Program-made: the position numbers and the translations under genes
Source of the DNA: Thermoplasmata archaeon
GTDB taxonomy: Archaea; Thermoplasmatota; Thermoplasmata; GCA-020350865
Assembly: GCA_020351895.1 (NCBI GenBank)
Contig: CP070672.1
Coordinates: 488,759 to 503,511 of the forward strand
Length of the DNA stretch: 14,753 bases
Reading direction: 5' to 3'
The notes under the pieces: model-generated
Told to the model about the DNA's origin: nothing
Databases searched by the model: none
The model's input: only the letters and a program-made list of their open reading frames with translations
Shown: piece after piece, positions 1-12,817 of the stretch
Layout of the letters: the number at the start of each line of letters is the position of its first letter
How positions within the stretch are numbered: the first letter of the stretch is position 1

Positions 1-793
1 CGTAGACAGATATTCCTTCAATGTTCTCTGATGCGTTATTTTTATGAATGAAGTTACCGTTAGATAAACGAATTCTGATTCCATAGTCATTGTTTAAAGC
101 TTCGTTAAAAGAGATATTATTATCATGAGAAATTGTAAAACAAGATCCATACCGAGAATTATACAAGATATTATTTCTAGATACCAGATTGTTGCTGGAA
201 TTATATAAATACAAACCAGTGCTGGACATGCCTTTCTCGTTGTGAGAAAAATTATTTTCTGTAATGTTATTCCCATTGCATGAATCAAGATACAGTCCGT
301 AATCATTATTTGAGGCGGTATTATTTGTAATATTATTTCCAGAGGAACCAGACAAATAAATTCCGTAAATATTATCAGAAGCATTGATTTCTGTCACACT
401 GCAATTAAGCACATTTTCCATTCTTAATCCCGAGCCTCCTCCGGTAACACTGAATCCCGTTATATTCACCCAATCCGCCTCGATCCTCACGGCATCTCCC
501 GACCCACTCCCATTGATCATTGTCGCGATTTGATTTTCCCCAGCCAAGTTTAGAGTCTTATTAACAATCACATTCTCGTAATAAGTCCCGTTGTAAACGT
601 AAACAGTATCTCCATCACTGGCGTTGTCTATGGCATCCTGTATTTTGGTGTATGCTCCACCACTTCCAGTTGTGTTGACATAGAGAGTGGTGCCTTCAGC
701 ATTTACTGAAAAGTCCACAGTAAACTCTACGATCACGATTAGGCTGAGAACCATGACCAGGCTCAGCCAGATTGAGATTACCCTCCTACTCAT
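1..793 (-). CDS. NosD-like parallel beta-helix surface protein, 5' part (runs off left edge)
   Basis: Reading complement from the ATG at 793 gives 264 codons without a stop up to the window edge, so the gene is cut by the window, not broken. The protein opens MSRRVISIWLSLVMVLSLIV, a basic start plus hydrophobic stretch typical of a signal peptide. It continues with TTLYVN, GGAYTKIQDAI, GDTVYVYNGTYYENV and WVNITGF, the usual entry to a NosD/CASH-type right-handed beta-helix. From about residue 120 come coils of roughly 23 residues with NN, GIYL/GLYL and many N-x-S/T sequons. It is a close paralogue of the N-terminus of the 9907-12738 protein. Likely role: secreted, glycosylated surface protein; ligand unknown. 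No Shine-Dalgarno sequence precedes the ATG. The AGGAGGG just inside the gene lies after this ATG, and the paralogues support the chosen start. NosD in the strict sense (copper insertion into nitrous oxide reductase) is not implied. Confidence 0.88.
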   Translation of the reverse strand, partial: MSRRVISIWLSLVMVLSLIVIVEFTVDFSVNAEGTTLYVNTTGSGGAYTKIQDAIDNASDGDTVYVYNGTYYENVIVNKTLNLAGENQIATMINGSGSGDAVRIEADWVNITGFSVTGGGSGLRMENVLNCSVTEINASDNIYGIYLSGSSGNNITNNTASNNDYGLYLDSCNGNNITENNFSHNEKGMSSTGLYLYNSSNNLVSRNNILYNSRYGSCFTISHDNNISFNEALNNDYGIRIRLSNGNFIHKNNASENIEGISVY

Positions 794-900: not shown

Positions 901-932
901 ACTTACAAAAAGTGTACAAAACAGTTTATATA
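901..932 (+). promoter_or_regulatory. Shared promoter element, copy 1 (no obvious gene)
   Basis: TTACAAAAAGTGTACAAAA is followed by TTTATATA at 925-932. The first 21 bases (901-921) are identical to the copy at 3330. The core is two TACAAAA repeats 11 bases apart, with the TATA box 24 bases from the start of the element, as in the other copies. No convincing coding region follows before the next copy at 1127. It may be a tandem distal promoter for the 1244 gene, drive a short RNA, or be left over from a lost gene. Confidence 0.6.
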
Positions 933-1126
933 CTTATTATACCATGATTTTATGGATCAGGTTTTGGCGGGAAGGGTGGGAAATTGGGACCATGTGCAAG
1001 ATATGAACCTACTTGATATGATGGAATAACTCGAATAATCTTAATGAAAGCTTAGGTCACATGTCTTATTTTTACATGAAACAAAAGATATGGTTCTAAT
1101 GTAAATCTATATTCTCCCATTCTTCT
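933..1126 (+). other. Intergenic stretch without a recognisable gene
   Basis: Between promoter copies 1 and 2 only tiny reading frames occur: 944-1006 (20 codons) and 1003-1029 (8 codons). The first starts upstream of the expected transcription start near 953, and neither has a convincing ribosome binding site. An ACATGT/ACATGA pair near 1059 and 1074 is a weak repeat. I see no gene here. Confidence 0.5.
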
Positions 1127-1160
1127 ACTTACAAAAAACGTACAAAAGACTTTATATATA
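1127..1160 (+). promoter_or_regulatory. Shared promoter element, copy 2 (upstream of the membrane regulator)
   Basis: ACTTACAAAAAACGTACAAAA is the same element with AC in place of GT in the centre, followed by TTTATATATA at 1151-1160. The two TACAAAA repeats and the 24-base spacing to TATA are kept. Transcription should start near 1180, leaving an AT-rich leader of about 60 bases before the ATG at 1244. If the downstream regulator binds this element it would control its own gene. Confidence 0.75.
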
Positions 1161-1173
1161 ATAAAAAAACGGA

Positions 1174-1209
1174 AATAATATTATATCATAAGTATATATA
1201 TATATTATT
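1174..1209 (+). repeat. AT-only inverted repeat in the leader of the regulator gene
   Basis: AATAATAT (1174-1181) and ATATTATT (1202-1209) are perfectly complementary, with a 20-base AT-rich loop. The right arm ends three bases before the purine run GGGGGAG (1213-1219). In such AT-rich sequence this could be chance. It is listed because other plus-strand genes here have a hairpin at the same place. Confidence 0.25.
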
Positions 1210-1221
1210 ATAGGGGGAGTA

Positions 1222-1242
1222 ATGAACAAGGCGGGAGCGTGA
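1222..1242 (+). CDS. Possible six-codon leader ORF (MNKAGA) before the regulator gene
   Basis: ATG AAC AAG GCG GGA GCG TGA follows a good Shine-Dalgarno-like GGGGGAG at 1213-1219. Its stop lies one base before the ATG of the regulator at 1244. A second purine run, GGCGGGAG (1230-1237), lies inside the mini-ORF and is correctly spaced for the 1244 start. Translation of the mini-ORF could therefore be coupled to the main gene, or the GGGGGAG may simply be unused. Chance occurrence cannot be excluded. Confidence 0.25.
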   Translation: MNKAGA

Positions 1243-1243
1243 T

Positions 1244-3241
1244 ATGGGAATTAGAGGTAATGGGTTAACAGAAGAAAAGTATTTTCGACATTCAATTCCA
1301 GCTGTGTGGATTGTATGTTTCCTGGCCTTTTTTGGGCTGATGATGAGCCAGGCAAGCGCAGGCCCCATAATTAAAGATGAAGAAACCTGTGGAAGCTGGT
1401 GCGATGATTTTCGGAATGAGGAGGGATTGGATAACCACTTCAATTTAACCTGCGAACCGGGAAATATTGGACTTATAAATACACCTGATGCAACAAAATG
1501 GGTAAATAAATCAATAGCCGTGGACAACGGGGATCCCTTTGATCTCTTTTTAGCAAAAAGACCCTCAGTATTGAAGGAAGATGGTGTATACAAGATGTGG
1601 TACTCGGGCTTCAATGGTAGAAAAAGCAGGATCTTATATGCCACATCAACAGATGGAATAGAATGGTTAAAGAATCCGGCTCCCGTAATTAATGTGGGCC
1701 CTCCAGGAGCTCCAGATGATACACATTTGAATAATCCGATAGTGATGAAGGACGATGGGATCTACAAGATGTGGTATGCCGGTAACGATAGCACTACCGA
1801 TAGAATCATGTACGCCACTTCCTCCGATGGATTCGAATGGACGAAACATGATGTGATCTTCCCGGACCTGGATGTCCATCCAAACACAGTCATGAGGGAC
1901 GGATCACTTTATAAGATGTGGTACCACCAGCTTGTGGGTGGCCACCATAGGATATTCTATGCAGTTTCATTAAACGGAGAAAACTGGATAAAAAAAGGCA
2001 TGGCACTCGATCTGGGTGATCAGGACCAACTTGATGACATGCATGTAAGCGGTGCGTCTGTCCTCAAAAATGACGAAGGTAGATACAGAATGTGGTATTC
2101 CGGTCACGATGAAGAAACAGGTTACAGAATTTTCTATGCAGAGGCTATTGATGAGAGAACCTGGATAAAGCATGGAATGGTAATAGATATTGGAAAGCCA
2201 GGTACACCAGATGATCAAGCTGCATCCTACCCTTTCGTAATAAAAGATGATGACATTTACAGGATGTGGTATATGGGGACATCAGGTGATCTTGAAACGC
2301 AGATAATGCATACGATAAGCCCACCCAGGTTCGCGGAAACCGGGAGCCTCGTATCAGTCACAATAACTTTACCATCCAGCCAATCCTGGAGTAATCTCGA
2401 GATCGATAAGATGGAACCCAGTGAGGATAACCGAATCCATGTTACAATATTGGATGGAATAACAGAGGAACCGATTTTAGGATTCGAGAAAATATTCGAA
2501 TCTAGTATTGACATCTCATCAATTGACAATAATAGTCATCCCACAATCAAGTTGAAGGCGACCTTTGTGGGATCGGGTGATGCTACTCCGATTCTGAAGG
2601 GATGGAGCGTAACGTGGGTCCTTTCAGGGGATAAACAGATCACACCCCAAGGTATTCAATTAGCAGACATTCCATGGGCTACAGTCATGATGGCAGCATC
2701 TGCGGGAGTGATCCTCTTTTCCCTCGCATTCGCAGGAGGAACAGAAGTGGGTAAGTACAAATTCTTCCCTGTTATCTTTCCCCTTTACTCGAGATTGAAA
2801 AGAAAGGAGCTTCTTAACTTGGTTACCCGAAGCAAGATCTTCGAATATATAATGGAACATCCAGGGGATCATTACAGCTCGATCAGGCAGGAGCTGAATC
2901 TAAACAACGGCGTTCTAGCCTACCACCTCAAGACTTTAGAAAGGGAGGAATACATCAAATCCATGCGTGACGGAGTCTACAAGAGGTTTTACCCGGTGGA
3001 TATGGATGTCCAGAGGGTGAACGGCTTTGGGACCCAGTCAATCCAGGGTCAATTAATTATTCATATTATTAACAACCCGGGATTGACCCAGAAGGAGCTC
3101 TCCAAGGCATTGGGTATAAGTCAGCAGGTTGTGAGCTACCATTTGAATCTCTTGATGGAGACGGGGCATGTGAGAGCTGAGAGGAGGGGGAAGGTGCTCA
3201 GGTATTATGTTAAAGGGGCGGTTCCCTGGGGTAATGTTTGA
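1244..3241 (+). CDS. Membrane-anchored regulator: beta-propeller ectodomain, TM helix, two cytoplasmic winged-helix domains
   Basis: 665 residues. A hydrophobic segment near 19-38 acts as signal peptide or first membrane helix. Residues about 90-365 carry five blades marked by Y(K/R)MWY motifs near 115, 174, 222, 280 and 339, each followed by RI.YA.S.DG..W, as in the five-bladed propellers of the GH43/GH32/GH130 type. A beta-sandwich-like stretch (about 365-470) leads to a transmembrane helix at about 476-499. The rest is cytoplasmic: one winged helix around 520-585 (SSIRQELNLNNGVLAYHLKTL) and a second at 598-658 (TQKELSKALGISQQVVSYHL). This tail resembles the two-HTH predicted regulators of COG3398. 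The likely role is direct transmembrane signalling from an outside carbohydrate or surface ligand to DNA; the ligand is unknown. The 1244 start is supported by GGCGGGAG six bases upstream and the hydrophobic segment that follows. Whether the propeller is catalytic cannot be told from sequence alone. Confidence 0.85.
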   Translation: MGIRGNGLTEEKYFRHSIPAVWIVCFLAFFGLMMSQASAGPIIKDEETCGSWCDDFRNEEGLDNHFNLTCEPGNIGLINTPDATKWVNKSIAVDNGDPFDLFLAKRPSVLKEDGVYKMWYSGFNGRKSRILYATSTDGIEWLKNPAPVINVGPPGAPDDTHLNNPIVMKDDGIYKMWYAGNDSTTDRIMYATSSDGFEWTKHDVIFPDLDVHPNTVMRDGSLYKMWYHQLVGGHHRIFYAVSLNGENWIKKGMALDLGDQDQLDDMHVSGASVLKNDEGRYRMWYSGHDEETGYRIFYAEAIDERTWIKHGMVIDIGKPGTPDDQAASYPFVIKDDDIYRMWYMGTSGDLETQIMHTISPPRFAETGSLVSVTITLPSSQSWSNLEIDKMEPSEDNRIHVTILDGITEEPILGFEKIFESSIDISSIDNNSHPTIKLKATFVGSGDATPILKGWSVTWVLSGDKQITPQGIQLADIPWATVMMAASAGVILFSLAFAGGTEVGKYKFFPVIFPLYSRLKRKELLNLVTRSKIFEYIMEHPGDHYSSIRQELNLNNGVLAYHLKTLEREEYIKSMRDGVYKRFYPVDMDVQRVNGFGTQSIQGQLIIHIINNPGLTQKELSKALGISQQVVSYHLNLLMETGHVRAERRGKVLRYYVKGAVPWGNV

Positions 3242-3271
3242 GTTGGGAGATTTTCATTGGTCTATTTCTAC

Positions 3272-3292
3272 ATGTGATTCACATCAGTGAAT
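3272..3292. repeat. Overlapping inverted repeats between the regulator and adhesin genes
   Basis: ATGTGA-T-TCACAT (3272-3284) is a perfect 13-base palindrome with one central base. It overlaps a second perfect hairpin, ATTCAC-ATCA-GTGAAT (3277-3292). Both lie 30 bases after the regulator's stop codon and about 38 bases upstream of promoter copy 3, so they could be an operator for the adhesin promoter or a 3' end structure of the regulator transcript. Confidence 0.4.
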
Positions 3293-3329
3293 TGTCTTTA
3301 CCAACTTTATCGAAAACCATTTTAAATCT

Positions 3330-3363
3330 ACTTACAAAAAGTGTACAAAAGAGTTTATATATA
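3330..3363 (+). promoter_or_regulatory. Shared promoter element, copy 3 (upstream of the adhesin-protease pair)
   Basis: The 21-base core (3330-3350) is identical to copy 1, and TTTATATATA starts at 3354 at the same 24-base offset. Transcription should start near 3382, giving a leader of about 30 bases. This carries GGGGGA at 3402-3407, a suitable ribosome binding site for the ATG at 3414. Confidence 0.75.
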
Positions 3364-3413
3364 TTTTAAACGAATTAGAAGGTGAATATTACGCGATATT
3401 TGGGGGAATAGAA

Positions 3414-4853
3414 ATGGAAAAAAGAATTAAGAGAAGATTAGGTGCCTTGGCAATTTTGGGAATACTTGTGATGGTTTCATTAATACCAATGGTTCTCGCT
3501 ACACCCAAGTGGGGCGAAGATCCCAATGATATTAATGATACCGGGAGCTATTATATTGACATCGATTCAAATAATGATGATGAAGATCAGGCATTTGCAG
3601 TAACAAAGCATGGATTATCAGGTGTTGGTACGGAACTCTTTAGAGTTCAAGAAGATGGCAATGTTGGTATCGGGACCCAAAATCCTCAAGCAAAATTGCA
3701 TGTGATGTCTTATGAAGATCAAATTAGGGTAAGTTATCCAGGTGGAATGCCTTATATGAACCTCATGGCTGGTGGAGCTTGGTGCGGTATTGAAGTCCAT
3801 TATTCATATGATAATCTTTTTTCGATATGGGATGGCGATTGGGAAACTGGCGAAGTTAGGTTGAATATCAAGGAGGATGGCAGAGTAGGGATTGGGAAAC
3901 TCGAGCCAGCCACGGAGCTTGATGTGGATGGTGTCATAACAGCCACAGGAGGGAATTCCGATAATTGGAACACAGCCTATCAATGGGGAGATCATGCATT
4001 AGCAGGCTATCTCACAAGTGAAAGCGATCCAATATTCGGTGCAAGTGCGGCAAGTGGAATCACAAGTGGAGACATTACCAACTGGGATACGGCTTATGGC
4101 TGGGGAGATCATGCATTAGCAGGCTATCTCACAAGTGAAAGCGATCCAATATTCGGTGCAAGTGCGGCAAGTGGAATCACAAGTGGAGATATTACCAACT
4201 GGGATACGGCTTATAGCTGGGGGGACCATGCCCTAGCAGGTTATGATCCAAGTTCAACTAACGAGTTACAAAGTCTTGCAGATGCTTACGCATTTGGCGG
4301 ACCAAGTGGAAATTCTATACAGCTTACTCAAATAAGCGGAAGTATCCATATTTTCAATGATGATCCAATCAATAAACCTATTCTCTGGTTAGATGAAAGA
4401 ACAGGCAATGTTGGTATGGGAACGACAGCCCCATCAGCAAAACTAGATGTTGAAATTCCACAAAATCCTACTGGCCTAGATGGAGCAGCGGAGATAGGTA
4501 TTAACAATTTAGCAACAGGATATTGCGCAATCGCGATGGGACAAAGTAGTACTGCTTCTGGAATGGGCTCAATCGCAATAGGAAGTAGTTTAACTGCAGG
4601 TGGAAGTTTTTCAATCGCGTTGGGAAAGTCAATCTTGATCGAGCCTAGTGCAACTGACAGTATTGGGATTGGTTTAAATTTCGATCCCACACCACCAATA
4701 TTAACACAACCTCACACAATGGCAATTATGAATGGCAATGTTGGCATTGGAACGACGACTCCAACCGAGAGCCTAGAAGTCAATGGTAATATCAAACTGT
4801 CTGGAGATATAACCTCCGATGGAGAAATTTGCATAGGGAGCGGTTGTCCATGA
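3414..4853 (+). CDS. Secreted trimeric-adhesin / tail-fibre-like stalk protein with YadA-type head repeats
   Basis: 479 residues. The signal peptide spans about 1-29 (basic start, hydrophobic core, cleavage near VLA-TPK). There are four copies of the fibre motif VG(I/M)GxxxPxxxLxV, near residues 84, 160, 340 and 443. Residues 191-277 hold the WGDHALAGYL repeat with a WNTAY/WDTAY partner, known from phage tail fibres and bacterial surface fibres. Residues about 362-412 show YadA/Hia head-type repeats (ATGYCAIAMG, TASGMGSIAIG). Such modules form long trimeric stalks and heads, so the protein is probably an extracellular adhesive fibre. There is no C-terminal S74 chaperone, membrane helix or beta-barrel anchor; it ends in SDGEICIGSGCP. 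How it stays on the cell is unclear. It shares a promoter with the downstream protease, 33 bases away. An integrated viral tail fibre is an alternative, but no other virion genes are nearby. Confidence 0.82.
   Translation: MEKRIKRRLGALAILGILVMVSLIPMVLATPKWGEDPNDINDTGSYYIDIDSNNDDEDQAFAVTKHGLSGVGTELFRVQEDGNVGIGTQNPQAKLHVMSYEDQIRVSYPGGMPYMNLMAGGAWCGIEVHYSYDNLFSIWDGDWETGEVRLNIKEDGRVGIGKLEPATELDVDGVITATGGNSDNWNTAYQWGDHALAGYLTSESDPIFGASAASGITSGDITNWDTAYGWGDHALAGYLTSESDPIFGASAASGITSGDITNWDTAYSWGDHALAGYDPSSTNELQSLADAYAFGGPSGNSIQLTQISGSIHIFNDDPINKPILWLDERTGNVGMGTTAPSAKLDVEIPQNPTGLDGAAEIGINNLATGYCAIAMGQSSTASGMGSIAIGSSLTAGGSFSIALGKSILIEPSATDSIGIGLNFDPTPPILTQPHTMAIMNGNVGIGTTTPTESLEVNGNIKLSGDITSDGEICIGSGCP
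3984..4244 (+). repeat. 117-bp in-frame tandem repeat in the adhesin gene (2.2 copies)
   Basis: Units at 3984-4100 and 4101-4217 differ at only two positions (gacatt/gatatt and ggc/agc). A diverged partial third unit runs from 4218 to 4244. Each unit encodes 39 residues beginning WGDHALAGYLTSESDPIFG. The near identity, including third codon positions, points to a recent duplication or ongoing homogenisation. Confidence 0.95.
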
Positions 4854-4886
4854 GATCCTCCGAAATGACCCATGGGGTGAAATAGA

Positions 4887-6815
4887 ATGCAACAGAAATG
4901 GTTGGAGATGGTGGCCATACTGACAACCTCGATAGTCGTAATGTCTCTACTATATCCTGCCGATCTGATCTTAACTCGGGATGAGGTAAGTGTAAGCGCC
5001 CAGAGTTTTGAAATTCTTCAAGATGAACATGTTGAATCATATATCCTTGATGGAATGCGTGTCAATAGAGGCACAGGGATGCCAATTGCTGTCTATAGTG
5101 CCGATTACACCGTAGCTCCAAGCGATCCTGAAAAGATGGCACGCCAGTATCTCGCAGAGAATGCGGAATTGTTTGGTATGCCAGATGATTTGAACGATCT
5201 AGTCCATAGAGTAACGGTAGAAACCCCTGGAGGCTACCATGTCCGATTTATTCAGATGTTAGATAGCTATCAGGTTTACGAAAGTGAGACAGTGGTTAAT
5301 ATTAATCCCCAAAATAAGGTTATGTTCGTTGCTAATGGGTATAATCCCTTTGTGACACTTCCACATGGATCTATCTCCCTGTCAGCTTCAGAGGCGCTAG
5401 AGGATGCAAAGAATTACTTGAAAGTTGATGGAAAGATTCAATATGAAAATACAGAAACTATTGTCTATTATAATAGTGGGGAGTCTCGATTGGCACACAA
5501 AATCAACGTTGTCCCAGCTGAAACCCCCCTTGGAGACTGGGAAATCTTGATAGATGCTTACACTTGTGAGATATTCAGGGTTGAGGATAAGGCAGTTTAT
5601 CAAAATCATGTAGATGGTACAGGTACGGTATTTGATCCAGATCCCCTTACAAGAGCTGGTGCCACTTATGGCGATCCGGGTTTCGTGGACAATGATGATG
5701 CTGACAGTCCCCAATTGACCAATCAACTGGTGAACGTTGTACTTCCTGACATTACGCTCGATGGGGGTACTCATTTCCTTACGGGACCTTGGGCCGAAAT
5801 TGTGGACTTTGAGGCGCCGTTTGATGGAGTTTTTTCCCAGCCAGGTTCAAATTTCGACTTTACCCGTGGGGATGACGAATTTGAAGCAGTGAACGCCTAC
5901 TATCACACTGACAAATCAATGCGTTACATTAACAATGAATTGGGATTCACTGTGACACCTACCCAATACGTTGGGGGAGTTCAGGTTGACCCCCACGGAG
6001 ATAATGGTGATGGTGGTTCACATTATAATCTTAATACAGGAAGAATTGCACATGGAGAGGGGGATGTTGATAATGCTGAAGATCCAGATGTTTTGCTTCA
6101 TGAATTGATGCATGGTGTCCATGATTGGCTTACTGGTGGAGGTGGTGTGGGCTTTTCGAATATCGAGGGGCTAAGTGAAGGCTCAGCAGATTATTGGGCA
6201 GTCTCTTATAATCGGGCTCAATTGTTCTGGGACCCAACTGATGCGGAATATAATTGGTTTGGACATTGGGTTGGCCATAACCCATTTTGGGCTGGGCGAA
6301 TTACAAACGATCCTGGAACTTATCCAGATGATTTGGATGGAGATGACATTCATTCCTCGGGTCAGCTATGGTCTTCCACACTAATGCAAATATGGGATGA
6401 TATTGGAAAAACAAAGACTGATAGACTTCTACTCGAAGCTTTATCAAATTTGAATGCAGCTTCCGATCAGAATGATGCTGCCGTGGCTTTCACCATCGCT
6501 GATGCTACATTGTATGGCGGGGACAATCTCGCAGCAATAATACATTGGTTTAATGCGAGAGGCTATACCGTCCCCGGAGGTAATGATCCACCACCATACG
6601 TCGAAGCTACGCCTCCGTCATCAGGCGACTGGTGGATCACCCAGGATTGTTACCTTCATAATGACGTCGTAGCTCCAGCCAATGTTATTGTAGCGGATAA
6701 CGTCGACCTTACTATTACAGCATTCGCATCTTTAGATATCGATTTGTTAAATCATCATATTAGGATTGGTGTTGGATCTCGGGTAATGATACTCCATGGT
6801 GCAAGGTTACACTAA
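4887..6815 (+). CDS. Secreted zinc metalloprotease, M36 (fungalysin)/M4-like, with FTP/PepSY propeptide
   Basis: 642 residues. A hydrophobic N-terminus (about 8-27) suggests export. Residues about 40-240 resemble the FTP and PepSY propeptide domains of thermolysin- and fungalysin-type proteases, which keep the enzyme inactive until cleaved. HELMH at 405-409 supplies two zinc ligands and the catalytic glutamate. Glu431 in LSEGSADYW, 22 residues further on, is the likely third ligand with Asp435 in the usual supporting place. This is the gluzincin arrangement. The last 70 residues, with repeated V/I-D-x pattern and ending in MILHGARLH, look like a short beta-rich appendage and may aid attachment. 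The gene begins 33 bases after the adhesin stop, with GGGGTGA at 4872-4878 as ribosome binding site and no TATA box between, so the two are probably one operon. Likely substrates are extracellular proteins or surface proteins of the cell itself; the sequence does not decide. Confidence 0.85.
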   Translation: MQQKWLEMVAILTTSIVVMSLLYPADLILTRDEVSVSAQSFEILQDEHVESYILDGMRVNRGTGMPIAVYSADYTVAPSDPEKMARQYLAENAELFGMPDDLNDLVHRVTVETPGGYHVRFIQMLDSYQVYESETVVNINPQNKVMFVANGYNPFVTLPHGSISLSASEALEDAKNYLKVDGKIQYENTETIVYYNSGESRLAHKINVVPAETPLGDWEILIDAYTCEIFRVEDKAVYQNHVDGTGTVFDPDPLTRAGATYGDPGFVDNDDADSPQLTNQLVNVVLPDITLDGGTHFLTGPWAEIVDFEAPFDGVFSQPGSNFDFTRGDDEFEAVNAYYHTDKSMRYINNELGFTVTPTQYVGGVQVDPHGDNGDGGSHYNLNTGRIAHGEGDVDNAEDPDVLLHELMHGVHDWLTGGGGVGFSNIEGLSEGSADYWAVSYNRAQLFWDPTDAEYNWFGHWVGHNPFWAGRITNDPGTYPDDLDGDDIHSSGQLWSSTLMQIWDDIGKTKTDRLLLEALSNLNAASDQNDAAVAFTIADATLYGGDNLAAIIHWFNARGYTVPGGNDPPPYVEATPPSSGDWWITQDCYLHNDVVAPANVIVADNVDLTITAFASLDIDLLNHHIRIGVGSRVMILHGARLH

Positions 6816-6898
6816 ACAGGCTCGTGAGCTTTACTCGAGCAGATAGGGCATGGCAAGCACGCCGATCCTGGTGCGAGCCGGAAGGATGCTCATGACCG
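6816..6898. other. GC-rich stretch after the protease gene, no gene recognised
   Basis: Bases 6819-6905 are about 62% G+C (54 of 87), clearly above the AT-rich surroundings. A short hairpin GCTCG/CGAGC (6820-6824, 6836-6840) follows the protease stop codon. Only short reading frames are present, such as 20 codons on the minus strand ending at 6835. It adjoins the decayed NosD-type 5' module and may be foreign or scrambled sequence. Confidence 0.35.
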
Positions 6899-6968
6899 TC
6901 ACGCCATTATTACCTTCCTAACCATGAATTAAAGTTAATACCCGAAGCCAGTTAAATACCTCCGATTA
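6899..6968 (-). pseudogene. Decayed 5' module of a NosD-like gene (promoter plus first codons MVRKVI)
   Basis: Reading complement from 6968: TAATCGGAGGTATTTAACTGG, then after a short stretch TTTAATTCATG and GTTAGGAAGGTAAT. This matches the sequence around the start of the 943-residue NosD-like gene (12780 to 12719) base for base over most of its length, including the AT-rich TATA-like GGTATTTA and the ATG context. The reading frame MVRKVIMA stops after eight codons at 6899. It is a relic of the family's promoter and signal-peptide start, oriented against the neighbouring genes. Confidence 0.7.
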
Positions 6969-7045
6969 CCACGTGTCCCCCAACCACTCTTGATGCGCTT
7001 TGATGGATACGAATGTTGAGATGTAGGTAAGGTTATTTCCTATGA

Positions 7046-7079
7046 ACTTACAAAAAGTGTACAATAAACTATATATATA
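7046..7079 (+). promoter_or_regulatory. Shared promoter element, copy 4 (upstream of the beta-sandwich gene)
   Basis: ACTTACAAAAAGTGTACAATA differs from copies 1 and 3 by one base. The TATA box (TATATATATA from 7070) keeps the 24-base offset. Transcription should start near 7097, just before a double hairpin in the leader. Confidence 0.75.
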
Positions 7080-7101: not shown

Positions 7102-7131
7102 CGGGAAAATCTGATTTTTCCCGAATCAGAT
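7102..7131 (+). promoter_or_regulatory. Two overlapping, mutually exclusive leader hairpins next to the ribosome binding site
   Basis: Hairpin A: CGGGAAAA (7102-7109) pairs with TTTTCCCG (7116-7123), loop TCTGAT. Hairpin B: ATCTGATT (7109-7116) pairs with AATCAGAT (7124-7131), loop TTTCCCG. Both are perfect 8-bp stems and share bases, so only one can form at a time. Hairpin B ends exactly one base before the Shine-Dalgarno AGGAGG (7132-7137) of the 7146 gene. The expected transcription start lies just upstream. This is the layout of a two-state leader, but no known riboswitch class is recognised. Confidence 0.5.
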
Positions 7132-7145
7132 AGGAGGCGATAAAC

Positions 7146-8777
7146 ATGGTTAGAACAAACTTGGAAGAAATTAAATTTGATTGTGTATTGAAGAAAATTG
7201 GAGTATATTTTACTACGCTTATACTGATAGGGATGACGTTCTCTGTCTTACTCACCCCTTCAGTGGAAGCTGATGAAATTGCAGATGTAGAAGTTCAAAT
7301 AGCCGATGTCGTATTTGAAGTCAAGAATGTAGCAGATCCGCCTTATTATAACCAAAAATGTTATGTTACCATTACTACGCTGGAACCTCCACTCCAAAAT
7401 TATATTTCTACGGGAACCGATGAAGACGGAAAGGTGACTTTTTATATTCTCTGGTCGTACCATGATTATTTAGATGATTGTAGTGGGGATTTATATATTA
7501 CAATATTTGAGTATAAGTTGAGAAGAGATATCGGTGAATGGGAGCAAACAAGATGGAAACATTGGCAAAAAACGGACATTGACGATGATTTTGAAGGGGC
7601 ATATATAGATCAGCGTGTTGTATATCCAGAGGATTTGGATTTTACAGTTGATGTTGAACCAGATGAGGTGCCTGTTTATCGATATATGATATATGCAAGG
7701 ATAATTGTACGAAATGCTGGATCTAATCCCACTAAAGGGAAAGATAATACTACAGATCTCAAAGATATATTGGTTGTTATTAATAGTGCGGTACTGTACC
7801 AGCAAACGATAGAAATTACACACGTGATTCCACCCGAAGAAGCATATACCGGTGGTACAGTTACTGTTGAAGGCTATGTTGGCACAGAAGAGAGCCCTGC
7901 CGGAGAACCAGTTATAGGTGTAAAAGTGCTTGTAGAGATTGTTGTTGAGTCTATGGTTGAGGGACAGGCTTCCGCATATAAGAGCAGACATGTATATACA
8001 GATTTACATGGGCAATTCACATGTACTTTTGATATTCCAACCGATCCCAGATGGGCAGGTGATGCTAAAATTTATGCAACAGATGCAACACGTATGGCCG
8101 ATTGGTATATGTTAAGTGGAGATACAGCCAAGTATTATGGCCCCCATATAAATCATGTAGCCGGTGGTGGCACTGCTAGAGGCCAAGTAGTTACAATATA
8201 TGATATTGCAGACCCGGATAATGAATATAAAGTAGGTGATACTGTTCCAATATATGGTAAAGTTGAATGGTTTCATCTAAATGCGCCAGGAGGATTTCAT
8301 GACCTTGAAGGAGCCACGGTCCATATAGATTTAGAAAAAAATCGTCATATTACTCTGTTGGGCCCACTTACCACGGATTCAAATGGATGTTTCTCAACTT
8401 CATTTTGGGAACAACCTGAAGCAGAGAATGTTGGTTGGGCATTTGTCAGAGCTTGGGTTAATGCATGGGTAGATGATGGTCACTTTTATATGCCATCCAA
8501 TTTAGCCAAGGATGATTTCTATTACGCTCCTCTTGGTGACCCAGAAATTCCTCCCCGTGATATTCCAGTTACCTATCAATGGCCTGATGGTTGGGAACTC
8601 GGATACCCGGTAATAAATTGGATCGGGGAAGTCGAGGTTTCGATTTTTAATGATGTTTCCTTTAAATATATAGAGGACCACGTAGAATTTGTGCCTGAAA
8701 CATATATAGGTACAGCTTATGTAACGGGAGAGAATCCCCCATTTGTCTATAGAGGGCCAGTAGCAAATCTGGCATAG
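7146..8777 (+). CDS. Secreted beta-sandwich (Ig-like) repeat protein of unknown function
   Basis: 543 residues. After a basic start, a hydrophobic segment (about 18-36) ends in SVEADE, a likely signal peptide. The rest is acidic and beta-rich. Three stretches resemble Ig-like or carboxypeptidase-regulatory-type domains, with hallmarks such as STGTDEDGKVTF (about 79-90), the YTGGTVTVEGYV...GVKVLVEI...TDLHGQFTCTFDIP block (about 236-300) and VGDTVPIYGKVEW...GATVHIDL...TTDSNGCFSTSF (about 361-420). These turn-plus-strand patterns are common in extracellular proteins that provide stalks or substrate contact. There is no C-terminal membrane helix or catalytic motif, so release or non-covalent attachment is likely. 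It has its own copy of the shared promoter element and an excellent AGGAGG eight bases before the ATG, which fixes the start. No specific family could be named. Confidence 0.8.
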   Translation: MVRTNLEEIKFDCVLKKIGVYFTTLILIGMTFSVLLTPSVEADEIADVEVQIADVVFEVKNVADPPYYNQKCYVTITTLEPPLQNYISTGTDEDGKVTFYILWSYHDYLDDCSGDLYITIFEYKLRRDIGEWEQTRWKHWQKTDIDDDFEGAYIDQRVVYPEDLDFTVDVEPDEVPVYRYMIYARIIVRNAGSNPTKGKDNTTDLKDILVVINSAVLYQQTIEITHVIPPEEAYTGGTVTVEGYVGTEESPAGEPVIGVKVLVEIVVESMVEGQASAYKSRHVYTDLHGQFTCTFDIPTDPRWAGDAKIYATDATRMADWYMLSGDTAKYYGPHINHVAGGGTARGQVVTIYDIADPDNEYKVGDTVPIYGKVEWFHLNAPGGFHDLEGATVHIDLEKNRHITLLGPLTTDSNGCFSTSFWEQPEAENVGWAFVRAWVNAWVDDGHFYMPSNLAKDDFYYAPLGDPEIPPRDIPVTYQWPDGWELGYPVINWIGEVEVSIFNDVSFKYIEDHVEFVPETYIGTAYVTGENPPFVYRGPVANLA

Positions 8778-9060: not shown

Positions 9061-9103
9061 GGGAACTCGAGATACTTATCATGGTACTCAAGTTCTCTTT
9101 TTT
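9061..9103 (+). terminator. Hairpin followed by T6, intrinsic-terminator-like
   Basis: GGGAACT (9061-9067) pairs with AGTTCTC (9091-9097, one G-T). One mismatch then separates a second stem, GAG/CTC and TAC/GTA with a bulged A, closing an eight-base loop. TTTTTT follows at 9098-9103. A long stem followed directly by a T-run is the bacterial intrinsic-terminator form; archaea also terminate at T-runs. It would end transcripts coming from the 7146 gene and isolate the small gene at 9164. Confidence 0.5.
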
Positions 9104-9113
9104 ACATATTTTA
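9103..9113 (+). promoter_or_regulatory. Probable TATA box of the small basic protein gene
   Basis: TACATATTTTA lies about 51 bases before the ATG at 9164, so transcription should start near 9135. The shared TACAAAA element is absent, so this gene appears to be outside that set. Confidence 0.35.
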
Positions 9114-9131
9114 CATTAACATTAAGTACTA

Positions 9132-9906: not shown

Positions 9907-12738
9907 TCAAAACGGAACATCCCACTCGCATTTGGACTTGGCATGAACCCAATACCCTCTCCCTGGCTCAAAATAATCATTCTCGCCAAGGTCATGCCAA
10001 GTTTTGGTTTCAGCATCATACCATTGAATTAAATCAACTTGGATTCCGAAAGTTAGGTTATTCAATCCCTCTGTTCTATTATAGCTTCTGAGAGATGGGT
10101 ACCCAACCATGTTCCAGCCCTCCTGCAAAGTAATTGTTTGATTCGTTGTTGGCTGGCTCCCCTGATATTGGAAAAGCACTCCGCCGGGCGCGGTAATGTG
10201 CACCCAAAATCCCATGATATTCTGGATACTGTCTAAATCATTTAATGGATCTGGCTTTCTCGTATTATTGTGTTTCCAAGGATCGGACATATCGCTGGCA
10301 TTGTACCACTGCACAGCATCATAGGCTCCGCTTATACTTTTTAAAACAGAACCAACATTTGGATCATATTGAATATACGGTATGAAGATAAGGTTCCATC
10401 CAGGGTACAGATAAATAAAACCAAAAGGATCGATTAAGGGAAAGTTGTCCAGCTGGAAATACCCGTTTCCCTGGTCGATTTCGGGATGTGGAATCTCGGT
10501 ATCCCCTACACCGTCACCTGCTATGCGGCCTCCGCTTCCGTCATCCAATCCTGTATAATCGCTCCAGTAGTTTCCCTTACCCTGGCCATCGTCCCACTCG
10601 TGATCAACGGAGGTTGTATAGTTCAGAAAGACCTGATTTGTGTTGAACATGATGTTGTTGTGGTAGAAAGTGTTGTTATTGCTTGTATTCAATAAAGATA
10701 TCCCCCACATATTGTTCTCTGAAATTATATTGCCCTTAAAGAGATTGTAGCGTGTATCCTCGGTAAGATTGATACCACATTCATTGTTTGAAATATTGTT
10801 ATTAATTATGGTATTGTTTCTGGCACCCCCTTCAAAGCGGATTCCATCTGCTTTGTTGTGCGATATATTATTACCTCTTACCTGATTGAAATAACCTGGG
10901 GAAATTAAGAGTCCAGTTCTATTATTGTTTACGATTTCGTTTTCTCTTATCACAATGGAGAGTGTGAATAGGATGAGTGCTATTCCGTATTCATTACTTG
11001 ATACATTATTCCCTATAATATTGATATCATCACATGGTCCAATCGAGATACCATACATTTTGTTCATTGTAACATTGTTCTGAATTATATCATTGAACTC
11101 GGAAGATTTAATGTATATTCCATCTTTTGTATTGTTAAAAACTGTATTGTTTGCAATAGTGTTTCTATCTGAATTCTCCAGAACGTAGATTCCATGGAGT
11201 ATTTTAGATTGATATACAACATTGTTCGTAACATTGTTAAAATCGGAGTTCTGAAGTTCAATTCCATTGAAATTACTATTATGCACTTTATTGCTCCTTA
11301 TCGTACATTCATCGCTTTTATACAAATGTATCCCCGATGTACTACTGTTATGGACGTTGTTGCCTTCAATTGTGTTTTTATTAGATGATTCACGGAGTAC
11401 TATCCCATATGGATTTCTGTATACAGTATTGCTTCCAATAAAGTTTGAGTTTGAATTACGAGGGAGATAGATCCCCACAAATGAATTCTCGAAGACAGTG
11501 TTATCCGTTATATTGTTATAGTTGCATCTTAGGAGATGGATCCCATCATCAACGTTTGAGAAAGCAATATTTTTAGTTATATTGTTCCCGAAGGCTTTCT
11601 CCAGATAGATACCCATTTTACTGCTATCAGAAACGTTGTTATATGAAACAGTGTTTGAGTCCGATAAAACAATAGCAATGCCATGCAATTGGTTCGAGAT
11701 AATGGAATTGGATGTGAGGTTGTTTCGTTCGGATGAAGTCAATCCGATACCTGTATTGGTATTCAATGATACATTATTGCCAGTAATTATGTTATCATTG
11801 GATGTGGTAAGATTGAAACCATTTTCATTATTCCAGCATGCTGTATTGTTGATTGCACTGTTATTGTTCGAGGTCTCGAGTCGTATTCCATAATCACTTT
11901 CTGATATGTTGTTATCCTTCATCATGTTCCAATCAGAAAAAGCAAGGTGGATGCAAACCCTGTCATTCGAGGATGCATTGTTATCTATTATAGTGTTATT
12001 GGAAGAAAAACCAAGATCGATGCCGATGTCATTATTCAAAGCATCGTTATCTGTTATTGTGTTGTTTGACGCCCATGAAAACGAAAGACCATAACCACCG
12101 TTAAAAGAAACATTGTTGTTTGTTATACTACTGTTTCCTGACGCAGCGAACCAGATACCGGTATCCTCATTGGAGGATATATTGTTGCCCTCTATGATGC
12201 AGTTTGACGATGATCCCAGATAGATACCGTTATCGTTGTTTGACACATTATTGTTTATTATTACGCTGTTAGATGAGATATCGCATACCATGCCCCAACC
12301 TGTGGGGAGCCCCCTGTTCGAATTAATATTGTTGTTTGTTACGCTATTGTTTGATGAAGATTCAAACAACATACCATGGGTTCCATTTGTAATAGTGAAT
12401 CCCGTGATGTTTACCCAATCTACATTCACATATACAACATTTCCACTTCCTTTTCCGTCGATGATTGTGGCATCCCTGTCCTCCCCAGTCAAATTGATGG
12501 TCTTATTCACCACCAAATTCTCGTAATAAGTTCCATTATACACAAAAACCGTATCTCCATGGAAACTGTCATTGATGGCATCCTGTATTTTCGTGTAGGC
12601 TCCATCACTGCCAGTTATATTGACATAAAGTGTGGTCCCTGAAACAGTGGGTGCAAAATCCATAGTCACATCCACAATCAAAATCAAACTAAGTACCATG
12701 ACTAAGCTCAATAAGATGGTAATTACCTTCCTGCCCAT
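9907..12738 (-). CDS. NosD-like parallel beta-helix cell-surface protein (943 aa) with duplicated C-terminal module
   Basis: Starts MGRKVITILLSLVMVLSLIL (signal peptide). TTLYVN, GAYTKIQDAI and WVNITGF lead into over twenty beta-helix coils of about 23 residues (roughly 105-690), with NN ladders, GI-L and S-x-N-x-I/T motifs. N-x-S/T sequons are abundant, pointing to N-glycosylation outside the cell. The NosD-type closing motif GNYWSDYTG with GDGVGDT follows near 723. The last 168 residues are a two-part module: PGWNLIFIPY...YDAVQWYNA...GFWVHI and EGWNMVGYPS...VDLIQWYDA...PGRGYWVHAK, ending CEWDVPF. The module recurs in the 13206 gene and may anchor or cap the protein. The helix often binds carbohydrate in CASH families; the ligand here is unknown. 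The ATG at 12738 is chosen because of homology with the 793 gene and the TATA box 25 bases upstream. Confidence 0.9.
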   Translation of the reverse strand: MGRKVITILLSLVMVLSLILIVDVTMDFAPTVSGTTLYVNITGSDGAYTKIQDAINDSFHGDTVFVYNGTYYENLVVNKTINLTGEDRDATIIDGKGSGNVVYVNVDWVNITGFTITNGTHGMLFESSSNNSVTNNNINSNRGLPTGWGMVCDISSNSVIINNNVSNNDNGIYLGSSSNCIIEGNNISSNEDTGIWFAASGNSSITNNNVSFNGGYGLSFSWASNNTITDNDALNNDIGIDLGFSSNNTIIDNNASSNDRVCIHLAFSDWNMMKDNNISESDYGIRLETSNNNSAINNTACWNNENGFNLTTSNDNIITGNNVSLNTNTGIGLTSSERNNLTSNSIISNQLHGIAIVLSDSNTVSYNNVSDSSKMGIYLEKAFGNNITKNIAFSNVDDGIHLLRCNYNNITDNTVFENSFVGIYLPRNSNSNFIGSNTVYRNPYGIVLRESSNKNTIEGNNVHNSSTSGIHLYKSDECTIRSNKVHNSNFNGIELQNSDFNNVTNNVVYQSKILHGIYVLENSDRNTIANNTVFNNTKDGIYIKSSEFNDIIQNNVTMNKMYGISIGPCDDINIIGNNVSSNEYGIALILFTLSIVIRENEIVNNNRTGLLISPGYFNQVRGNNISHNKADGIRFEGGARNNTIINNNISNNECGINLTEDTRYNLFKGNIISENNMWGISLLNTSNNNTFYHNNIMFNTNQVFLNYTTSVDHEWDDGQGKGNYWSDYTGLDDGSGGRIAGDGVGDTEIPHPEIDQGNGYFQLDNFPLIDPFGFIYLYPGWNLIFIPYIQYDPNVGSVLKSISGAYDAVQWYNASDMSDPWKHNNTRKPDPLNDLDSIQNIMGFWVHITAPGGVLFQYQGSQPTTNQTITLQEGWNMVGYPSLRSYNRTEGLNNLTFGIQVDLIQWYDAETKTWHDLGENDYFEPGRGYWVHAKSKCEWDVPF

Positions 12739-12770: not shown

Positions 12771-12817
12771 CCTTCCGATTGCCTCGATTGTTCGCCATGC
12801 TCCTTATTGATAGTATA

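Follow-up and report, generated by a model that had tools for sequence, protein, structure and literature searches.

A four-copy promoter element with paired TACAAAA words and its candidate membrane-anchored reader in a Thermoplasmata genome

Does a short sequence that recurs before several genes of one archaeal locus mark a set of genes that are switched together, and if so, which protein reads it? The locus in question is a stretch of 14,753 bases (39.9% G+C; hereafter the window, with its genes named by their start positions) on contig CP070672.1 of a Thermoplasmata archaeon, in which a 32-bp element occurs four times, ahead of the gene for a putative membrane-anchored regulator (1244), a pair of genes for a secreted fibre-like protein and a metallopeptidase (3414 and 4887), and the 7146 gene (Table 1). 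We propose that in this element a core promoter carries a two-part transcription-factor site, most likely read by the 1244 product, which would switch the local secreted and surface genes together; we give this explanation an even chance.

Sequence, spacing, and origin of the element

The four copies, all on the (+) strand and all intergenic, share the consensus ACTTACAAAAA(GT/AC)GTACAAWA-NAS-TWTATATA with fixed internal spacing. A preceding inspection of the letters alone (the sequence-only reading) had described a fixed-spacing element at 901, 1127, 3330, and 7046 with 24 bases from its first base to the TATA box, and a pattern search together with shuffles and Markov models confirmed the four copies. 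Specifically, TTACAAAA begins at 903, 1129, 3332, and 7048, with the conserved block opening two bases earlier (AC in all four copies), and the distance from the first T of TTACAAAA to the literal TATA is 24 bases in every case. The fixed spacing does not extend to a fixed sequence: copy 2 carries AC instead of GT between the repeats and the proximal repeat of copy 4 reads TACAATA rather than TACAAAA; the copies are thus near-identical, not identical. The two TACAAAA repeats that had been placed 11 bases apart are indeed direct repeats in all four copies (with TACAATA as the second word of copy 4), and their start-to-start distance of 11 bp corresponds to one helical turn.

Table 1. Element copies, genes, and protein domains discussed in the text (positions in the window; residues where stated)
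Feature	Position	Strand	Details
Element copy 1	901..932	+	repeats 904-910 and 915-921; TATA octamer 925-932
Element copy 2	1127..1158	+	repeats 1130-1136 and 1141-1147; TATA octamer 1151-1158
Element copy 3	3330..3361	+	repeats 3333-3339 and 3344-3350; TATA octamer 3354-3361
Element copy 4	7046..7077	+	TACAAAA 7049-7055; TACAATA 7060-7066; TATA octamer 7070-7077
Candidate reader, putative membrane-anchored regulator (1244 product)	1244..3241	+	665 aa
1244 product, layout (residues)	hydrophobic helix 18-38; beta-propeller ~60-360; beta-sandwich ~361-460; membrane helix 478-499		from hydropathy and model
1244 product, DNA-binding part (residues)	wHTH1 ~526-584; wHTH2 ~600-656		HTH_HVO_0163_N (wHTH1); HTH_24/MarR_2 (wHTH2); from Pfam and model
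Secreted fibre-like protein	3414..4853	+	hydrophobic N-terminus; YadA-head-like and phage tail-fibre-like repeats
Secreted M36-like metallopeptidase	4887..6815	+	HELMH motif; 33 nt behind 3414-4853
7146 gene product	7146..8777	+	543 aa; hydrophobic N-terminus
Hypothetical leaderless 25-codon open reading frame	952..1029	+	ATG at the start site predicted from copy 1 (951-955)

In 200 dinucleotide shuffles the element was never matched, whether up to three mismatches to the strict pattern were allowed or an exact match to the degenerate pattern was required. Markov models of order 1 to 3 put the expected number of TTACAAAAARYGTACAAWANNNTWTATA at 4e-9 to 8e-9 and that of TACAAAANNNNTACAAWA at ~0.001, compared with four observed for each. 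Together, the shuffles and the models exclude a chance origin of the four copies. TACAAAA occurs eight times on the two strands of the window, with seven of these words lying within elements and the eighth at 11131 on the (−) strand, and all four copies fall in intergenic DNA, which makes up 13.8% of the window.

Counted from the TATA octamer, the proximal repeat runs from −10 to −4, which leaves 3 bp between the two. This repeat had been said to lie over the transcription factor B (TFB) recognition element (BRE), which was borne out by an overlap with three of the six BRE positions, namely the outer half. The distal repeat, at −21 to −15, is outside the BRE and is thus not accounted for by TFB at its usual site. 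The classical archaeal BRE follows the pattern RNWAAW. Copies 1 to 4 carry C, G, G, and A at BRE position −3 and G, C, G, and C at position −1, thereby departing from this pattern in three of four copies at −3 and in all four at −1, although RNWAAW may not be the preference of this host.

Further analysis of the flanks (six site pairs, 200 bp upstream and 200 bp downstream) revealed that 11 of the 12 comparisons remained within the range of 100 shuffles, with one marginal excess upstream of 903 and 7048 (score 24, where the shuffles reached at most 22). The copies therefore do not descend from the recent duplication of a larger segment, and we ruled out this origin. A repeat finder stretches the element family to 44 nt, at 68–86% identity to its reference copy.

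We also looked for the element outside the window. In a species-genome scan, the strict pattern, which fits three of the four window copies, gave one match; this lies within a coding frame of an Epsilonproteobacteria metagenome-assembled genome, an unrelated bacterium, and was taken as chance. No viral contig carried the strict pattern. With a relaxed pattern that fits all four window copies, the viral scan returned seven stretches in four sequence groups (G+C 0.28–0.37), each with one paired repeat per locus: two lie inside open reading frames (ORFs) of at least 80 aa, three (one group) lie just before a long ORF that starts 2 bases past the match, and two show neither arrangement. We took all seven as probable chance matches. 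BLAST with copy 3 produced two weak phage records (E 0.4), which are two accessions of one phage, and no match against plasmids. Given these weak phage matches, the lack of plasmid matches, and the absence of the strict pattern from the viral contigs, a mobile or viral origin of the element was rejected. A literature search by titles and abstract openings found nothing on this element, which is no proof of absence.

The 1244 product as candidate reader

Hydropathy, structure models, and Pfam place a sensor-like domain, a membrane helix, and two winged helix-turn-helix (wHTH) domains in the single chain of the 1244 product. HTH_HVO_0163_N (PF24266) matches residues 528–588 with 64 bits (cut-off 31) and Glyco_hydro_32N matches with 35.2 bits (cut-off 22.1), while Glyco_hydro_130 stays below its cut-off (22.7 versus 26) and none of 11 NCBIfam families listed for the regulator reaches its own. 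The model of the full protein (mean predicted local distance difference test [pLDDT] 79.7; predicted template modelling score [pTM] 0.54; 15 sequences) is all-beta up to residue 460, with helix 478–499 at low confidence, and the DNA-binding part modelled alone has a mean pLDDT of 87.8. Foldseek groups the propeller with GH130-type mannoside phosphorylases and with GH32/GH43 enzymes. The propeller would lie outside the membrane and the wHTH pair in the cytoplasm.

Next to the repeated half-site stands a repeated domain. wHTH1 and wHTH2 align without gaps over 55 residues with a score of 69, compared with a mean of 23.6 (sd 4.6; maximum 42) for 1,000 shuffles, and by this alignment the two domains are internal duplicates. 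Their recognition helices are alike as well (NGVLAYHL in wHTH1 and QQVVSYHL in wHTH2), both holding V-x-x-YHL. The earlier proposal that a protein with two winged helices would suit two direct repeats gains some support from this duplicated pair and its like recognition helices, whereas its extension to a regulon read by 1244 draws on four sites in 14.7 kb.

Comparison with solved structures revealed one sequence relative of wHTH1 in the PDB at E ≤ 0.01, 5duk_A (E 7.7e-8). The structure matches of the C-terminal pair are to general wHTH folds (TFIIIC, RNA polymerase III subunits, ESCRT-II, SelB, ArsR, and MarR), which are uninformative on specificity, with most VIA-align rows taking in wHTH2 only. 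Relatives of the regulator were collected by word-based searches limited by length, from which we considered the best 120 of 877 rows and all 84 rows of a second search. Among the matches listed, the taxon-named relatives with the same DNA-binding pair (P0006, P0127, P0131, and P0133) are all Thermoplasmata, and the 4,229,406-base contig that carries the window's own protein, P0001, showed no second regulator of this type. The QQ...YH motif of wHTH2 recurs in 17 of 42 aligned relatives (18 of 43 rows including the window's own). A viral scan for relatives found 46 stretches that fit a peptide pattern, none of which was confirmed.

Elsewhere, the wHTH pair is joined to propeller, WD40/PQQ-like, PKD, and PF10633 domains and to NosD PF05048 (7 of the 84 rows), and this variety of partners suggests, on the basis of domain composition, a modular family of archaeal sensors. 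Two metagenome proteins (P0118 and P0119) combine sigma-70 region families with glycosidase-like propeller families; these may join outside sensing to transcription or may be gene-prediction fusions.

Genes with and without the element

Of the genes for which the element had been claimed, i.e., the regulator gene, an adhesin-protease pair, and a beta-sandwich gene, all have it ahead of them by position, with two copies (901 and 1127) preceding the regulator. Copy 2 is the predicted proximal promoter of the regulator gene, copy 3 that of the fibre/protease pair, and copy 4 that of the 7146 gene. With the transcription start placed 26–30 bases past the first base of the TATA octamer, the predicted leaders measure ~65 nt (regulator, copy 2), ~32 nt (3414, copy 3), and ~48 nt (7146, copy 4), and G-rich Shine-Dalgarno-like stretches precede the ATGs of the element-led genes. 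Copy 1 begins 343 nt before the regulator ATG and may be an outer promoter of this gene or the promoter of the tiny leaderless frame listed in Table 1; translation of this frame into a leaderless micropeptide is a possibility. The 4887 gene has no element directly before it, sits inside an apparent operon, and is likely co-transcribed with the 3414 gene, judging from their arrangement.

Hydrophobic N-termini are found in all four products of the element-led units (regulator, fibre-like protein, peptidase, and 7146). The YadA-head-like match of the 3414 product reaches 25.2 bits at a cut-off of 25, and the 7146 product matches no family of Pfam, NCBIfam, or PHROGs, with a large protein search returning only the protein itself. 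Inside the fibre-like gene, 3963–4196 consists of two 117-nt tandem copies (92% identical) and is a possible site of length variation. The 7146 leader (7102–7130) can form two mutually exclusive stems, CGGGAAAA/TTTTCCCG and TCTGAT/ATCAGA, upstream of the Shine-Dalgarno stretch; the hairpin lacks statistical significance (z −1.4, equalled by 16 of 200 shuffles), and no Rfam family matched at its gathering score across the window. A structured RNA was accordingly rejected.

The element was not found before NosD1 (793, minus strand), NosD2 (12738, minus strand), the 9164 gene, or the zinc-ribbon gene (12871). Its reported absence before the zinc-ribbon gene is borne out, and its absence before the NosD-like genes stands for two of the three, the start of NosD3 being outside the window. 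A second promoter block, AATCGGA(A/G)G(G)-TATT, is common to NosD2, where it has an extra G, and to two relic NosD N-termini; NosD1 does not show it. This block lies at 6965 and 9841 on the minus strand (relic starts near 6925 and 9802) and also at 12778, and the relic frames begin MVRKVIMA and MGRKVISLWFS. Taken together, the TACAAAA element and the separate NosD block place at least two promoter classes side by side in the window. It appears that NosD genes have been lost or truncated here, leaving their promoters behind. Upstream of the 9164 gene, 9103–9130 holds TACATATTTTACATTAACATT, in which TACAT words are spaced by 9 bp, an arrangement different from that of the element.

Possible readers of the element and known systems

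The recurrence of one word in one helical phase, with the distal word beyond the BRE, argues for a dedicated protein that approaches one face of the DNA with a pair of similar DNA-binding units. If this protein is the 1244 product, it would act as a membrane-anchored one-component regulator with its extracellular glycosidase-like propeller as the sensor, and each of its two duplicated cytoplasmic winged helices could take one TACAAAA half-site; we infer both the binding and the assignment of one domain to each repeat. It would bind its own promoter(s), that of the fibre/protease operon, and that of the 7146 gene, where contact with TFB at a putatively poor BRE would turn on the set of secreted proteins jointly. 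The position of two of the four copies ahead of the regulator gene adds linkage and possible autoregulation in its favour. By analogy, we somewhat prefer activation to repression, and no more than somewhat because a protein that covers the BRE might instead keep TFB off. As for the signal, the propeller suggests a surface glycan.

Several observations weigh against the 1244 product as reader. Its recognition helices differ (NNGVLAYHL and SQQVVSYHL) though the half-sites are the same word, and the nearest solved folds of its DNA-binding part are wHTH domains of the ArsR/MarR type, which usually bind inverted repeats as dimers. Moreover, regulators with like domains exist in other archaea, yet the strict element turned up in no related genome scanned, a result that depends on whether these archaea belong to the scanned set. 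Since 17 of 42 relatives share QQ...YH, like sites might be expected in some of their genomes. A fuller version of the proposal would be a new type of archaeal promoter control. In it, a single membrane-anchored chain with a glycosidase-like extracellular sensor uses its two duplicated winged helices to clamp a direct repeat that is phased at 11 bp and merged with the BRE. A polysaccharide outside the cell would thereby act directly on the recruitment of TFB at a dedicated regulon of fibre, protease, and orphan surface proteins, and the chain would control its own doubled promoter, the outer one driving a leaderless micropeptide. Taken whole, this version is tentative and rather unlikely.

It is possible, if doubtful, that the element is instead a regulatory site for another, probably soluble, factor encoded elsewhere, such as an EarA-like activator, with 1244 merely one of its targets, since nearness to gene 1244 does not prove binding by its product. 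According to two reports (PMC5512572, PMC10665913), EarA sites in Methanococcus are TACATA words that immediately precede a BRE of seven adenines, whereas Thermococcales have A(C/G)(C/G)TACA(T/C), present up to three times and placed nine nucleotides upstream of the BRE. These are the closest DNA relative we saw, sharing with the element repeated TACA-containing words upstream of an A-rich BRE, here apparently weak, and a TATA box. However, TACA is all that the half-site here (TACAAAA, once TACAATA) has in common with TACATA, the proximal repeat overlaps the BRE, unlike EarA sites, and the targets are not archaellum genes, with no archaellum family found by Pfam among the nine window proteins. 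The candidate reader also differs from EarA in being membrane-anchored, with two wHTH domains.

A core-promoter variant, in which a dedicated TFB (or a pair of TFB and TATA-binding protein [TBP]) recognises a longer BRE within which the proximal repeat falls, would account for the fixed distance to TATA and the overlap with three BRE positions, and the extended BRE of 9–10 nt in Methanocaldococcus, as quoted in PMC5512572, would span the whole proximal repeat. We hold it improbable, as the distal repeat, no less conserved than its proximal counterpart, is out of reach even of such an extended BRE, and one word repeated fits a single domain type used twice. The element's TATA box is of the ordinary archaeal type, as expected of a general strong promoter that marks no regulon, but several gene starts in the window lack the element, NosD2 and the two relic NosD N-termini use their own block, and the species-genome scan gave no related match, which leaves this explanation a slim chance. 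Slimmer yet is the chance that no dedicated protein takes part and that paired A-runs, spaced by one helical turn, curve the DNA and thereby aid TBP and TFB: such runs stand 11 bp apart upstream of TATA in three copies (copy 4 has AATA as its second run), while the TAC ahead of each run and the G before the second TAC are constant in all four, and curvature alone needs none of these letters.

The element bound by the 1244 product, as we prefer to see it, can be set beside known regulators. Archaeal activators such as EarA (PMC5512572, PMC10665913) and TFB-RF1 (PMC5937170) act at weak BREs from just upstream. TFB-RF1 (PF1088) has its site just upstream of a weak BRE, as may be the case here, and activates by TFB recruitment, but the site is a palindrome, TCTG-N5-CAGA (PMC5937170), whereas the element is a direct repeat. 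ArnR and ArnR1 of Sulfolobus are also membrane-bound HTH regulators that control surface structures via promoter boxes; they differ in having an N-terminal HTH and inverted-repeat boxes (TCGAC-N5-GTCGA; PMC6396743), compared with the C-terminal tandem wHTH and direct repeats here. The combination of wHTH, direct repeat, and 11-bp register is found in KdpE of the OmpR/PhoB family, for which PMC3264566 gives two 6-bp repeats 5 bp apart, and ToxR, also membrane-anchored, is reported to read a direct repeat. These proteins act at bacterial promoters, and no OmpR-type family is among the 11 Pfam hits of 1244. Archaeal regulators with PF24266 and a MarR-like wHTH carry the same C-terminal pair as 1244, with attached domains that vary. 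One paper that names HVO_0163 is, by its title, an acetylome study.

By analogy with these systems, the element would join the known regulatory boxes that several genes share ahead of apparently weak core promoters in archaea, and what appears unusual is the candidate reader. If the link between the two holds, the locus would offer a test system made up of a single 32-bp element, a candidate reader whose domains can be separated, and four natural promoters. It could also give a first lead on where related regulators with tandem wHTH domains bind DNA, regulators whose sensors vary while their recognition helices stay alike.

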